64,000 nucleotides of DNA from Rhodomicrobium vannielii ATCC 17100. GTDB taxonomy: Bacteria; Pseudomonadota; Alphaproteobacteria; Rhizobiales; Rhodomicrobiaceae. Positions 9,260-30,392 of this stretch are shown piece after piece (positions within the stretch are counted from its first letter, which is position 1; every line of letters starts with the position of its first letter). Where the stretch lies: assembly GCF_000166055.1 (NCBI RefSeq), contig NC_014664.1, forward strand, positions 496,001-560,000, in the 5' to 3' direction. Made by a program: the position numbers and the translations under genes. The notes beneath the pieces were generated by a model. It saw nothing but the letters and a program-made list of their open reading frames with translations. It was not told the origin of the DNA and did not search any database.

Positions 9260-10096
9260 TTATATATCCAAAATCCTCTTACCAAACTCCGAGGTAAACG
9301 CTTCGGCGAGCCGTTTTACCACGCCATCACGCTCAGATCTCGTGAATGCAATTGGGGGGCCACCGGGTGTGCGGTTCATATCGATAACATATGCTAGACC
9401 ATTGTTTCTATCGCGCATTACATCGATTTCTCCATATTCCATGCCAATCATCGCGCACATTCTGCATATAGCGTCAACTTCTTCCTGCGATAGTAGGGAT
9501 CGGGTTGGCAGTATCTGGACAGAGTTTGATGGGATAGCGAAGCGCTCTGAAAGCGGGTGGCGCTTCAGATAGCAGATATCGAGAACAGTCCCGATGACCA
9601 GGACCCTGATTTCCTCGACCTCATCGCCAACCTCGGTACAAATTAGTTTTTGATAAAAAAAGCCGTGCTTGGGAATTTCAGGTTCATACAAAATACATCC
9701 ATCGTGCGCTGCATTTCTTATCGATTTTCGAACATAATGGCCTGTTACATTTAGCGGATCAACCGTGTAGCCATAACCGAATGCTTGCAGCTGATAATCT
9801 GCGACGACATCTTTATCAATATTTGTGCAGCGGCCATTGATGAAATGGTCGGGCTGGCGTGGATAGATATCATCAGTAAGAGGAAAAAAGATTGTAGCGC
9901 TACCAGGTGACAATAACGTATTGGAAATCCTTATATTTAAAGCATCGCATATCTTCACCATTACATGACCAGAGCTGGGAAAGCCATGCGAAAACGAAAG
10001 CACGTTGCGTCGGGTTGAAATTTGAGAAAGGTATCGCGCTCGGTCGAATAAGAATCGAGCATATTTTCGGTGTCGTTTATATTGTGATACGGTCAT
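9260..10096 (-). CDS. ATP-grasp-like protein in polysaccharide cluster
   Basis: 278 aa and AT-rich. The C-terminal part, MEYGEIDVMRDRNNGLAYVIDMNRTPGGPP, has the acidic and asparagine residues (E/D...DMN) that bind Mg-ATP in ATP-grasp folds such as RimK or TupA-like proteins. The N-terminal part has SFSHGFPSSGHVMVKICDALNI, and the middle has GYTVDPLNVTGHYVRKS. ATP-grasp enzymes ligate a carboxylate to an amine, or phosphorylate; in polysaccharide loci some add amino acids to uronic acids. That role is only a guess here. The gene lies between the truncated dehydrogenase and the IS element and may have lost neighbours. The fold call is moderate and the function unknown. Confidence 0.5.
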   Translation of the reverse strand: MTVSQYKRHRKYARFLFDRARYLSQISTRRNVLSFSHGFPSSGHVMVKICDALNIRISNTLLSPGSATIFFPLTDDIYPRQPDHFINGRCTNIDKDVVADYQLQAFGYGYTVDPLNVTGHYVRKSIRNAAHDGCILYEPEIPKHGFFYQKLICTEVGDEVEEIRVLVIGTVLDICYLKRHPLSERFAIPSNSVQILPTRSLLSQEEVDAICRMCAMIGMEYGEIDVMRDRNNGLAYVIDMNRTPGGPPIAFTRSERDGVVKRLAEAFTSEFGKRILDI

Positions 10097-10119
10097 TGCA
10101 GATCTCTGCGGTCATAATA

Positions 10120-10377
10120 TCAGCGGGATTCGGCGACGATGAAGACCCCGCAGGATCGAAGCTCTTCCAGAGAAGTCGTGTAGGTCAGATAGCGGGCGGC
10201 GGCCAGCTCATGCGGTTCGACTTCCCGCGTGCGGTCGATCCCTTCGCGAAGGTCCGCAACACGGGCGGCGCTGACATCGAAACCGACGACGGACCGTATC
10301 TTGCCGAACTCGACGGCAAGCGGAAGCCCGACATACCCGAGGCCGATGACTCCAATAGTTTTGTCGCTCAGATCCAT
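10120..10377 (-). pseudogene. Truncated UDP-sugar 6-dehydrogenase (TviB/WbpA-like), N-terminal fragment
   Basis: 85 aa from MDLSDKTIGVIGLGYVG. The Rossmann motif GLGYVGLPLAVEFG and FDVSAARVADLREGIDRTREV are typical of UDP-N-acetylhexosamine dehydrogenases that make uronic acids for Vi-type or O-antigen polysaccharides. Full-length enzymes are about 420 aa and continue VFIVTVPTP; here the frame changes to VFIVAESR and stops, so the catalytic and C-terminal domains are missing. The break lies 24 bases from the ATP-grasp-like gene, which suggests a deletion fused unrelated DNA at this point. Confidence 0.75.
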
Positions 10378-26730: not shown

Positions 26731-27177
26731 ATGAAATGCATTTTGCCGCGGACGATGCCTTATCCGAAGATAGCCGCGACGGTGTTGGGCGCGCTTGCCG
26801 TTGCCGTCGTTTTTTGTGCGGGGTGTTCGAAAGCGACAGCCGAGACGATCGACGTTTACGACGATCACGGTGGATCGGTGGTGGCATACGATCAACGCTG
26901 GGCCGGGCTCGCGCGGCGGGGCGTGAATGTCCGCATCATTGGTCCGTGTCAATCGGCCTGTACCGTGCTTCTGCGCCATATACCGCGCAGTCGTATCTGT
27001 GTCACGCCTGCCGCGTCTTTCGGCTTTCATCTCGCCAAAAGGCAGCGAGGCACTGACATTCTGCGAGCAGGCTATGCGCCCGATATCATGGGCTGGATCA
27101 ACCGTCATGGCGGCCTCACGCCCGATTTCATCTGGATGAGCGCGCCGGATACGTACCGCTTTTTCCGCAAGTGCTAG
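26731..27177 (+). CDS. Secreted ClpP-like/periplasmic protein (COG3904-like)
   Basis: 148 aa from MKCILPRTMPYPKIA. It has a hydrophobic signal segment (TVLGALAVAVVFCAGCSKATA) that could be a lipoprotein signal, although the lipobox is poor, or an ordinary one cleaved before ETIDVYDD. The body has GGSVVAYDQRWAGLARRGVNV and GPCQSACTVLL, matching the ClpP-like fold of predicted periplasmic proteins, where the CxSAC serine is the expected nucleophile position. A later PAASFGFHLA segment also fits. No partner genes are evident. An upstream hairpin at 26553-26598 (arms GGATCGCT and AGCGATTCC) lies in the 227-base gap. Confidence 0.65.
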   Translation: MKCILPRTMPYPKIAATVLGALAVAVVFCAGCSKATAETIDVYDDHGGSVVAYDQRWAGLARRGVNVRIIGPCQSACTVLLRHIPRSRICVTPAASFGFHLAKRQRGTDILRAGYAPDIMGWINRHGGLTPDFIWMSAPDTYRFFRKC

Positions 27178-27410: not shown

Positions 27411-28127
27411 TCAAGCCTCGACTTGCGACGCGGCACCGTCATTCGGCAACAGGCCGGGCAGGCGCGGCACCTGCACGCCGATCATGCTTTCGCGCGTGAC
27501 GAGGGCGGCAAGGTCTTCTTCCAGAAAGGCTTCGCTTCCGGCGGGCCGCATCGGCAGGACGAGATAGACGTGGTCCGCCGCCGCATCGTGGACGCGCACC
27601 TCGACATAGCTCGGGATGTCCGCGCCGAATTCCGCGAGCACCTGGCGCGGCTCACGCACGGCGCGGCTTCTGTACGCGGCGCTCTCGTACCACGCAGGCG
27701 CACGGCCAAGCAGCGCGCGTGGAAAGGATACGCCGAGCGAGGACACGACGAGATTATGCAGATGCGGCGTGTTTTCCACGACGATGAGCCGCCCCGGCCC
27801 CGCGTCACAATCGAACTCGCGCGCGGCGAGGTTGGCGTTCTCGAAAAGCCGCGCCTTGAAGCCAGGATCGACCCAGGCGCGGGCGATGAGCCGCGCGCCA
27901 TAGGCGGGTGAACCTGCGTCGAGCGCTTCGACGGCACGCTGAATGTCGACGGCCTTGATCAGGCCCTTCGCGATGAGCAACTCGCTCAACGCCGCTTCGA
28001 GCGCTTCGTAATAGCCAAGCGGAGCAACTGTCGATGTTGTCGCGATCGCCCGCGACGTTGAACCGTGCTCAGGCCCGGCGCTTCCGCCGACCCGGCGCAA
28101 CCCTACGATACCAAGGAAGTTGATCAT
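27411..28127 (-). CDS. Nitrile hydratase alpha/thiocyanate hydrolase gamma-like protein lacking metal cysteines
   Basis: 238 aa. Most of the chain follows the nitrile hydratase alpha fold: RLIARAWVDPGFKARLFENA, VVENTPHLHNLVV, YRSRAVREPRQVLAEFG, then VYLVLPMRPAGSE and LAALVTRESMIGV. In active enzymes the next residues after HN-VV are VCTLCSC, whose three cysteines (two oxidised) bind Fe or Co. Here residues 129-134 are SSLGVS, so all three ligands are gone. The codons were checked directly (27726-27743). The start overlaps the beta-C-like gene by 59 bases. The protein cannot bind metal in the known way; it may be a structural paralogue or have another activity. Confidence 0.8.
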   Translation of the reverse strand: MINFLGIVGLRRVGGSAGPEHGSTSRAIATTSTVAPLGYYEALEAALSELLIAKGLIKAVDIQRAVEALDAGSPAYGARLIARAWVDPGFKARLFENANLAAREFDCDAGPGRLIVVENTPHLHNLVVSSLGVSFPRALLGRAPAWYESAAYRSRAVREPRQVLAEFGADIPSYVEVRVHDAAADHVYLVLPMRPAGSEAFLEEDLAALVTRESMIGVQVPRLPGLLPNDGAASQVEA

Positions 28128-28566
28128 CGGTCTTGTCTTTCGGATTGAGCGTCAGCCAGTGCTCGAACAGCTCGATTTCGAGAGTATCGTTCGGCGGGCC
28201 CTTATAGTCGGGCCACAGGTCGACCTGCCGGAACCGCACCCGATAGAGCATCTTCTTCGGCGTGAAGCGGCCATAGGCGATGTCGTCGGGGTTGAGGAAT
28301 TCGCCGAGCGCGCGCGAGATGGTACCTTTGGCGCCCATGACGTAACGCGGCGTGCGGGTATAGGCCGGGCCGATCACGCGGCGCACATGGACGGTGTCGC
28401 CGGTGCCGAAGCGCGGCTCGTTGCCCTTGATGACCGGCAGCATCGAAGGCGCGACGGGCACCAGCACCGCCGGTGTCTCCGCTTCTGCCGAGGCGTCGGA
28501 AGGGACTTCGTTATCGGTGATGATCGTCTGGCTCATGATCGTCTGGCTCATGGTCGTCTGGCTCAT
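28069..28566 (-). CDS. Nitrile hydratase beta C-terminal/thiocyanate hydrolase alpha-like subunit
   Basis: 165 aa. After a variable N-terminus the SH3-like barrel of nitrile hydratase beta appears: FGTGDTVHVRRVIGPAYTRT, PRYVMGAKGTISRALGEFLNPD, LYRVRFRQVDLWPD and NDTLEIELFEHWL. In thiocyanate hydrolase this domain is the separate ScnA subunit. The start region is a triplicated 15-bp repeat giving MSQTTMSQTIMSQTI, so three in-frame ATG codons are possible starts. The gene overlaps the upstream beta-N-like gene by ATGA and the downstream alpha-like gene by 59 bases, so expression is tightly coupled. Confidence 0.8.
   Translation of the reverse strand: MSQTTMSQTIMSQTIITDNEVPSDASAEAETPAVLVPVAPSMLPVIKGNEPRFGTGDTVHVRRVIGPAYTRTPRYVMGAKGTISRALGEFLNPDDIAYGRFTPKKMLYRVRFRQVDLWPDYKGPPNDTLEIELFEHWLTLNPKDKTDDQLPWYRRVAPGRRKRRA
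28521..28565. repeat. Triplicated 15-bp tandem repeat at a start codon
   Basis: Three units of TGATCGTCTGGCTCA (the third with one change) encode repeated MSQTI at the N-terminus of the ScnA-like protein. Copy-number change would keep the frame and add or remove alternative start codons. Confidence 0.85.
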
Positions 28567-28874
28567 GGCCGCCCCTGTTTCGAGACTGCTTCCAGCGCAT
28601 CCGCCAGTTGGTCGCCCGAGATGACGCCGCGTTCGAGCAACGCATTCGCCAGCGCCACGACCGCGCGTTCATGATAGGTCGCGCCCTCGGCGGCGGCGTT
28701 GTCTATGCGCCGACGCATGTCGTCCGGCGTGAACAGTCCGCGCGCGGGATGCTGCACGAGCGTGAGCAGCGCCTCGACGCGATCTTGCCAGGGCAGCGAC
28801 TCACGGCCGGTAAACTCGATCGCGCCAGCGGGCGAACCGCCGATATCGTTCTGTTTTCTCGGAGCTTCTTGCAT
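28563..28874 (-). CDS. Nitrile hydratase beta N-terminal/thiocyanate hydrolase beta-like subunit
   Basis: 103 aa from MQEAPRKQNDIGGSPAG. The helical segment LPWQDRVEALLTLVQHPARG, FTPDDMRRRIDNAAAEG, YHERAVVALANALLERGVIS corresponds to the N-terminal helical region of nitrile hydratase beta, or the separate ScnB subunit. It is the first gene of the three-gene operon, followed by the ScnA-like and ScnC-like genes in the same order as the thiocyanate hydrolase genes. The frame extends 30 codons upstream without similarity; the chosen ATG gives a protein matching the conserved start of the domain. queD lies 134 bases upstream on the same strand. Confidence 0.75.
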   Translation of the reverse strand: MQEAPRKQNDIGGSPAGAIEFTGRESLPWQDRVEALLTLVQHPARGLFTPDDMRRRIDNAAAEGATYHERAVVALANALLERGVISGDQLADALEAVSKQGRP

Positions 28875-29008
28875 GGGAATCGGCCGCGATGACGGTTTGG
28901 TGACAGATGCATCACGGTATAGCAAGACGGTGCTCGAAATGCAAAAATCAACGTCGGCGCGCAACGTGAGGCCGGTTATCGCACCGCCGGCGGGCGACGA
29001 CGCGCGCG

Positions 29009-29365
29009 CTATGCGCCGTTATATTCCGCCCAGCATTCCGGCGTTTCGTAAACGCGCACGGCGGTGAGTTGCGGCAGCGCGTCCTTCACGCGGTCCCAGA
29101 TCCACGCGGCGATGTTCTCGGCGGTGGGGTTCTCCAGCCCTTCGACTTCATTCAGATAATAATGGTCGAGCCGCTTGAGCAGCGGGCCGAACGCCGCCTC
29201 GATGTCGAAGAAGTCGACGACGAACCCGGTTTCCGGATCGACCGGCCCTTCGAGCTGAAGCTCGACCCGATAGGAGTGTCCATGCACTCGGCGGCAGGGA
29301 TGAGTGTCCTTTACGAAGGGCAGGCGGTGTGCCGCCTCGAACCGGAACGACTGCGTAACTTTCAT
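29009..29365 (-). CDS. queD: 6-carboxy-5,6,7,8-tetrahydropterin synthase (QueD/PTPS family)
   Basis: 118 aa from MKVTQSFRFEAAHRLPFV. The zinc ligands are His13, His28 and His30 (HRVHGHSYR region), with catalytic Cys24 five residues before HGH (HPCRRVHGH), as in QueD-type enzymes that convert dihydroneopterin triphosphate for queuosine synthesis. VDFFDIEAAFGPLLKRLDH and the C-terminal ETPECWAEY fit the family. A longer frame upstream is unrelated. No other queuosine genes are in the window. Confidence 0.92.
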   Translation of the reverse strand: MKVTQSFRFEAAHRLPFVKDTHPCRRVHGHSYRVELQLEGPVDPETGFVVDFFDIEAAFGPLLKRLDHYYLNEVEGLENPTAENIAAWIWDRVKDALPQLTAVRVYETPECWAEYNGA

Positions 29366-29593: not shown

Positions 29594-30208
29594 CTATGGA
29601 AAAAGCTGCGTCTTCGTCCAGGCTGCGCCGCGACCCTCCCGCCGGAACACGATGCGGTCGTGGAGGCGATATTGGCGGTCCTGCCAGAATTCGATCTCCA
29701 GCGGCACCACGCGGAAGCCGGACCAGTAGGGCGGACGCTTCGGCTCGATCCCGGCGAACAGCTTGCCGAAATGCTTGACGGCCTCGCCGAGCGCCGCGCG
29801 GCTTTCGAGCGGTCGCGACTGCTTGCTCGCCCATGCGCCGATGCGGCTGCCAAGCGGACGCGAGGCATAGTAGGCGTCGGCCTCTTCCGCGCTCACCTGT
29901 TCGACCGTGCCGCGCACACGCACCTGACGGCGCAGCGATTTCCAGTGGAAAAGTAGCGCCGCTTGCGGATTCAAGAGAAGCTCGCGCCCCTTGGTGCTCT
30001 CGAAGTTCGTGTAGAACACGAAGCCGCGCTCATCCACACTCTTCAGTAGCACCATCCGCGCGTTCGGCATGCCGCTCGGGTCGGCGGTGGCGACGGTCAT
30101 CGCGTTGGGATCGTTCGGTTCGCTCCGCTCGGCTTCCTTGAACCATGCATCGAAGAGGGGCAGGGGATCGCTCGCCTGCGTGAAATCGCCGTCAGTCGTC
30201 GAGGTCAT
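29594..30208 (-). CDS. pdxH: Pyridoxamine 5'-phosphate oxidase
   Basis: 204 aa from [22 protein letters not shown]-binding and substrate motifs include [55 protein letters not shown] and the C-terminal [24 protein letters not shown]. It oxidises PNP or PMP to pyridoxal phosphate in the cytoplasm. It is divergent from fabI with a 184-base gap that should hold both promoters. Confidence 0.96.
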
Positions 30209-30392
30209 TTTTCGGGTCCGGGGTTGGTCGCAGACGCGCTCCGCTTGGAGCCCGGCGTGTAAACACGCAAACGAACTCGCCCGCGCCGCGTCAACGACGG
30301 CCGAACTTATCGCGTCCGCACCCGCCAAGCTATCACTTTACGCGAGCGGCTTAATGTGTAGGATGCGTCACCGTTAATATCGGGGAACGAAC

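Follow-up and report, generated by a model that had tools for sequence, protein, structure and literature searches.

An operon of nitrile hydratase type without metal-site cysteines in Rhodomicrobium

Background

What becomes of a nitrile hydratase-type operon when its alpha-type subunit has none of the cysteines of the metal site? The question is raised by three overlapping genes in a 64,000-nucleotide stretch of the genome of Rhodomicrobium vannielii ATCC 17100, an environmental phototroph (contig NC_014664.1, positions 496,001 to 560,000; hereafter the window, whose numbering is used unless another locus is named). An initial annotation of these genes had proposed that the retained fold and operon point to selection for a different role rather than to decay. 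An excerpt of the literature on nitrile hydratases (NHases) states that the oxidised cysteines are essential for activity (PMC4709657).

The operon and its relatives

The genes lie on the minus strand in the order pdxH, queD, betaN, betaC, alpha, with overlaps within betaN-betaC-alpha. The alpha-type subunit (27411..28127; 238 aa), a homologue of NHase alpha and of the gamma subunit of thiocyanate hydrolase (SCNase), matches Pfam NHase_alpha at E 9.5e-71 and has no metal-site cysteine. BetaC (28069..28566; 165 aa) corresponds to the C-terminal domain of the NHase beta subunit (NHase_beta_C, E 7.1e-22). BetaN (28563..28874; 103 aa) corresponds to the N-terminal domain. An ATG at 28874 is taken as its start, which fits the end given in the initial annotation; its NHase_beta_N match (E 7.6e-5) was obtained on a longer ORF, 28563-28964, which opens with TTG. 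As the initial annotation had claimed, each gene matches an NHase subunit or domain, and all three chains exceed the curated Pfam cut-offs (237.4 vs 27.2 bits for alpha, 78.1 vs 27.7 for betaC and 23.2 vs 21.5 for betaN). The predicted alpha fold is NHase-like (AlphaFold; mean pLDDT 80.3, 135 residues at 90 or more), in line with the fold retention proposed earlier. By fold and profile, the betaN-betaC-alpha set belongs to the NHase/SCNase superfamily.

Upstream lie queD, of the PTPS family (29009..29365, minus strand; Pfam PTPS, E 1.3e-39; likely start at 29365 in an ORF that reaches 29557), and a pdxH-like pyridoxamine phosphate oxidase gene (29594..30328, minus strand; PNPOx_N, E 1.1e-29). 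A scan for promoters and terminators gave no promoter-like and three terminator-like sites, not above shuffled sequence. We also observed that betaC begins with three in-frame 15-nt units (28522-28566; MSQTT-MSQTI-MSQTI), of which the sister species have fewer, diverged copies, and that a small ORF on the other strand just downstream of alpha (26758-27177) is matched over only 35 aa in R. udaipurense and not at all in the stretches from Rhodomicrobium sp. Az07 and a further Rhodomicrobium genome, G004.

In SCNase of the Thiobacillus thioparus type (PDB 2dd4), too, the chains of betaN and betaC type come from genes of their own next to the alpha-type gene, but the enzyme has a cysteine-ligated cobalt site of which the Rhodomicrobium proteins (four of four) have no cysteine. 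The initial annotation had assigned the SCNase order scnB-scnA-scnC to these genes, which read B-A-C in SCNase letters; a review excerpt gives alpha-beta-gamma-activator for SCNase (PMC7193024), so what is confirmed of the assignment is the three separate genes. Compared with the Co- and Fe-type NHases (PDB 3qxe, 2zph), the window operon has a split beta chain and has lost metal ligands and other active-site residues. The nearest relatives in sequence are split NHase/SCNase-like operons of alphaproteobacteria (for example L079, L082, L076 and L090, these four at 53-58% alpha identity), which share the betaN-betaC-alpha layout in the six loci read out and which, unlike those of Rhodomicrobium, keep CTLCSC, the betaC histidine and mostly a His-rich alpha tail. 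Two canonical relatives are ordered betaC, alpha, betaN (L010, 4633-5896; L012, 4660-5908). Close to the operon of L012 lies a NicO-type gene for nickel transport, and at 10096-10353 this locus has another betaN-like stretch.

With TIGR01323, the NHase alpha equivalog model (cut-off 249.85), the window alpha scores 198 bits, a weak test given that five cysteine-bearing relatives, represented by partial sequences, score 242.7-277.6 and two of these fall below the cut-off. The SCNase gamma model gives 176.1 bits against a cut-off of 291.45, and the same five partial sequences also fall below. Judged by its metal-site residues, alpha is neither a nitrile hydratase nor a thiocyanate hydrolase. No second NHase alpha was found in its own genome (4,014,469 bases in a single contig) at E 1 or better.

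The motif within and outside Rhodomicrobium

At 27743-27726 on the minus strand, the codons TCC TCG CTC GGC GTA TCC of the 238-aa ORF spell SSLGVS (27726..27743; residues 129-134), so that alpha reads VSSLGVS where the family counterpart is VCTLCSC; the flanking NTPHLHNLVV and REPRQVLAEFG are both kept. Replacement and flanks are thus as first annotated. In a family search of eight genomes, the operon was intact in four of the five from Rhodomicrobium, that of the window included. Alpha is full-length and free of stops in all four, the other three copies being 91-95% identical to that of the window (95% in R. udaipurense JA643, 91% in Rhodomicrobium sp. Az07). All three cysteines are absent from each copy, with SSLGVS in three species and SSLGAS in one. 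Because the altered motif recurs in all four operon-bearing genomes, it is real, and a sequencing error is ruled out as its cause. The initial annotation had allowed for a decaying enzyme should close relatives have the cysteines or broken frames; within the genus, all four copies are open and free of the three cysteines.

The order gpm, hyp421, fabI, pdxH, queD, betaN, betaC, alpha is common to the window and three related stretches. Next come a DUF4139 gene and a 1054-aa gene, both in the window and in R. udaipurense and G004; the approximately 8 kb examined past alpha in Az07 contain neither. Both alpha and betaC are missing from the remaining Rhodomicrobium genome (G005; 88% complete). Its queD is 70% identical to that of the window, and in the 12 kb around this gene no other neighbour from the window was found. 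The absence of the operon, in a genome 88% complete, suggests that its role is non-essential to the genus as a whole. Among the five genomes, this operon-free one (L150, L151) alone has YcaO matches, and no QueF match was found in it.

The constant pdxH-queD-betaN-betaC-alpha order, in the window and the three related stretches, raises the possibility that the set is a regulatory or accessory partner of its neighbours, for example by binding preQ0 or a pterin. PreQ0 is itself a nitrile, which counts for such a reading. However, QueF scores above cut-off at other places in all four operon-bearing genomes, so the standard route exists and has no evident gap; in G005, queD is present and the operon absent, and four species this close share most of the neighbourhood anyway. 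We regard this partnership as quite improbable.

Homologues were drawn from a genome scan, from order, class and phylum samples (matches in 183 of 397, 141 of 385 and 58 of 398 genomes, respectively) and from chosen fetches. The motif was read in the best-scoring loci and in chosen lower scorers, with many lower matches and 177 plasmid records with a match lying outside the count. Every other homologue read over the motif keeps the three cysteines: 122 distinct proteins, 59 further places and four low scorers. The 122 come from 129 distinct proteins, in which the seven without CxLCxC are the four Rhodomicrobium proteins and three cut copies of these; the 59 are what is left of 60 further places, all with the cysteines, once L189, a repeat of L020, is set aside. 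Among five low-scoring genomes, four have the three cysteines (CTQCSC in two, CTLCSC in two) and the fifth is cut before the motif. Divergent alpha homologues (L226 and L227 from genomes G405 and G538, L130 and L131) differ around the motif, reading CTQCSCTAW in two cases and CSLCSCTNW in two, with the three cysteines kept. In Lentzea indica (L023, 5001-5552), the NHase alpha match contains an in-frame stop, possibly a pseudogene or a sequence error. No relative was found in viral contigs.

A tree of 126 proteins places the four cysteine-free ones in a single clade (support 100/100), whose stem measures 0.94 changes per column against a median end branch of 0.17. The clade is nested among mainly alphaproteobacterial relatives, within a 48-row group (98/96) and a 37-row group (83/95) that is itself poorly resolved. 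Since the parent group keeps the cysteines, the tree implies a single loss on one long branch and no large separate family; we read in it one loss, followed by rapid change and later by a return of constraint. This lineage lost its metal-site cysteines cleanly and kept the whole operon; the residues stand in every other homologue read over the motif.

Literature searches gave, among the matches listed, no cysteine-free NHase other than the nitrile hydratase leader peptides (NHLPs), which are likewise relatives of NHase alpha without metal residues. According to an excerpt of their description (PMC2887384), NHLPs are leaders of ribosomally synthesised and modified peptides (RiPPs) that delete a 63-residue segment including the active site and have a Gly-Gly and, at the C-terminus, many heterocyclisable residues. 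As this closest precedent lost the whole active-site segment, the loss in Rhodomicrobium is different in kind. The window alpha does match the NHLP model TIGR03793, but below threshold (48.8 bits vs a cut-off of 50.9), and it retains the active-site segment and its beta partners, has neither Gly-Gly nor cysteine in the tail past residue 220 and is accompanied by YcaO in none of the four operon-bearing genomes. Retained segment and tail rule out a RiPP leader in form, and a precursor of the NHLP kind is extremely unlikely.

Residues lost and retained

Of the 61 alpha columns conserved in the relatives, 47 are unchanged in all four Rhodomicrobium proteins. Altered in all four are C129, T130, C132, S133, C134, P143, K148, S182, T183, R187 and D213, and in some of the four V81, Y135 and P136. 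The changes fall on seven of the eight conserved columns of loop 129-136, as against seven of 53 elsewhere (Fisher P 5.6e-5, with loop bounds chosen post hoc). Asp181 is retained. Of the columns conserved among 41 canonical relatives, 6/18 are changed in betaN and 4/18 in betaC. BetaN R84 and betaC R71, which by hand count on the alignments correspond to Arg52 and Arg149 of the P. putida beta subunit, are retained; the two oxidised cysteines of NHase are held in salt bridges by two arginines of this kind (PMC7193024, excerpt). Where beta His147 aligns, betaC has Tyr69 in all four and His in 41 of 41 relatives.

At least five histidines occur within the first 45 residues of alpha in 28 of 34 near relatives, and none or one in the four Rhodomicrobium proteins, counts that use script-chosen starts (L082 scored 0 despite His-rich upstream codons). 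Such a His-rich tail may be a metal-loading aid. A PF21006 search of the four operon-bearing genomes found no second betaN-like, activator-like gene above cut-off. Little weight attaches to this absence, since the DNA examined around four near canonical loci (L008, L009, L011, L013) contains none either. On these alignments, the losses are concentrated at the active site: the three cysteines, the intervening serine, second-shell alpha residues, the beta histidine and the His-rich tail that most near relatives have. Most residues that carry the fold are unchanged.

With the thiolates gone, the known metal centre cannot form. Could the set bind a different metal through the oxygens of the serines, through backbone amides or by way of other side chains? 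The loop is unchanged in length and position, and a backbone amide also serves the NHase metal (PMC2887384, excerpt), but all three thiolates and the His-rich N-terminus have disappeared, and no activator-like gene was found in the four genomes; we give such a metalloprotein little credence.

Selective constraint and overlapping frames

Over matched core regions in six species pairs, alpha dN/dS is 0.056-0.106. Cysteine-bearing alpha relatives give 0.044-0.235 in 14 pairs, among them the canonical pair L105/L107, whose dS is saturated at 2.8. The alpha values lie inside this range, and alpha is therefore as constrained as its cysteine-bearing relatives. That baseline covers alpha only; the beta chains, with core values of 0.033-0.139 (betaC) and 0.087-0.303 (betaN), are compared with the neighbouring genes queD (0.000-0.092), pdxH (0.060-0.098) and fabI (0.000-0.043). 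The constraint on the betaC core is close to that on these housekeeping neighbours, and betaN and the betaC N-terminus are looser. Over the full length, the ratios are 0.094-0.164 for alpha, 0.191-0.371 for betaC, including its variable N-terminal stretch, and 0.165-0.376 for betaN. These ratios show the operon genes to be under purifying selection.

A further feature sets the four species apart. Their betaC ends in a basic tail (...DDQLPWYRRVAPGRRKRRA) that is clade-specific, being absent in 41 of 41 aligned relatives, and their alpha has a new N-terminus (MINFLGIVGLRRVGGSA...). Tail and extension are encoded by the same 59 nt in two frames (28069..28127, minus strand). Among the four species a single one of the 59 columns is variable; the median over 1,405 such segments in the operon is 13, and the 43 segments with equally little variation all start at 28169-28126, around the overlap. 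This near-invariance suggests that both frames are read. Directly upstream of the overlap, a further 40 nt are also nearly invariant (one variable column vs a median of nine), for no obvious reason. The stretch 28069-28169 has the lowest variation of the whole operon among the four species. An RNA element in the conserved overlap was considered and rejected, its fold being ordinary (z -0.28).

The ratios and the intact frames rule out plain decay. An enzyme at an early stage of decay could account for the long stem branch (0.94) and for a betaN dN/dS of up to 0.30, but frames intact in four species, the low ratio of the alpha core and a near-invariant two-frame overlap stand against it, and we consider it very unlikely. 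The initial proposal of selection rather than decay is supported by the intact frames and by an alpha dN/dS typical of a functional protein; a large separate family is not seen, the loss being single.

Constraint equal to that of cysteine-bearing relatives would also suit a metal-free catalyst, in which one of the loop serines, conserved in all four proteins, acts with the two retained beta arginines and the kept Asp181 in a new hydrolytic or addition reaction. Against this, a tyrosine occupies the position of the betaC histidine, and S182, T183 and R187 are lost. Such a catalyst is unlikely, if less so than the other alternatives; we judge a binding, sensing or scaffold role the most likely and metal-free catalysis second.

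Conclusions

The different role claimed by the initial annotation holds as a negative, there being neither NHase/SCNase metal chemistry nor decay; what the role may be, we infer as follows. On balance it is probable, if only just, that a three-chain set of NHase/SCNase type lost its metal centre a single time, in the common ancestor of the four Rhodomicrobium species, and has been selected for a metal-free binding, sensing or scaffold role. That ancestor would have lost all three cysteine ligands, and selection for the metal-free role would then have fixed the altered set. Since four related bacteria keep this altered form intact, the old enzyme scaffold probably now serves another function that needs no metal.

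We tentatively hypothesize, with somewhat less than even confidence, that the product is a three-chain complex without metal, in which an intersubunit pocket serves new binding or catalysis and tails from overlapping frames serve docking. In the favoured reading of the preceding paragraph, too, the betaN, betaC and alpha chains would still assemble. At their old interface, the Ser/Gly loop (SSLGVS) and the two freed arginines may line a pocket suited to a small anion or polar ligand; the arginines retained without their cysteine partners, together with the loop, are the two features that suggest this site. The complex would then act as a binding, sensing or scaffold protein and not as a nitrile or thiocyanate hydrolase, and its docking to a partner may be the task of the basic betaC tail and the N-terminal extension of alpha.

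That the cysteines were lost and the whole operon was kept under strong selection points to a metal-free use of the NHase scaffold. The Rhodomicrobium set is a natural metal-free counterpart with which effects of the scaffold and the arginines can be separated from those of the metal in NHase assembly, and it gives Rhodomicrobium a concrete candidate pseudoenzyme whose role is open to deletion and ligand screening.
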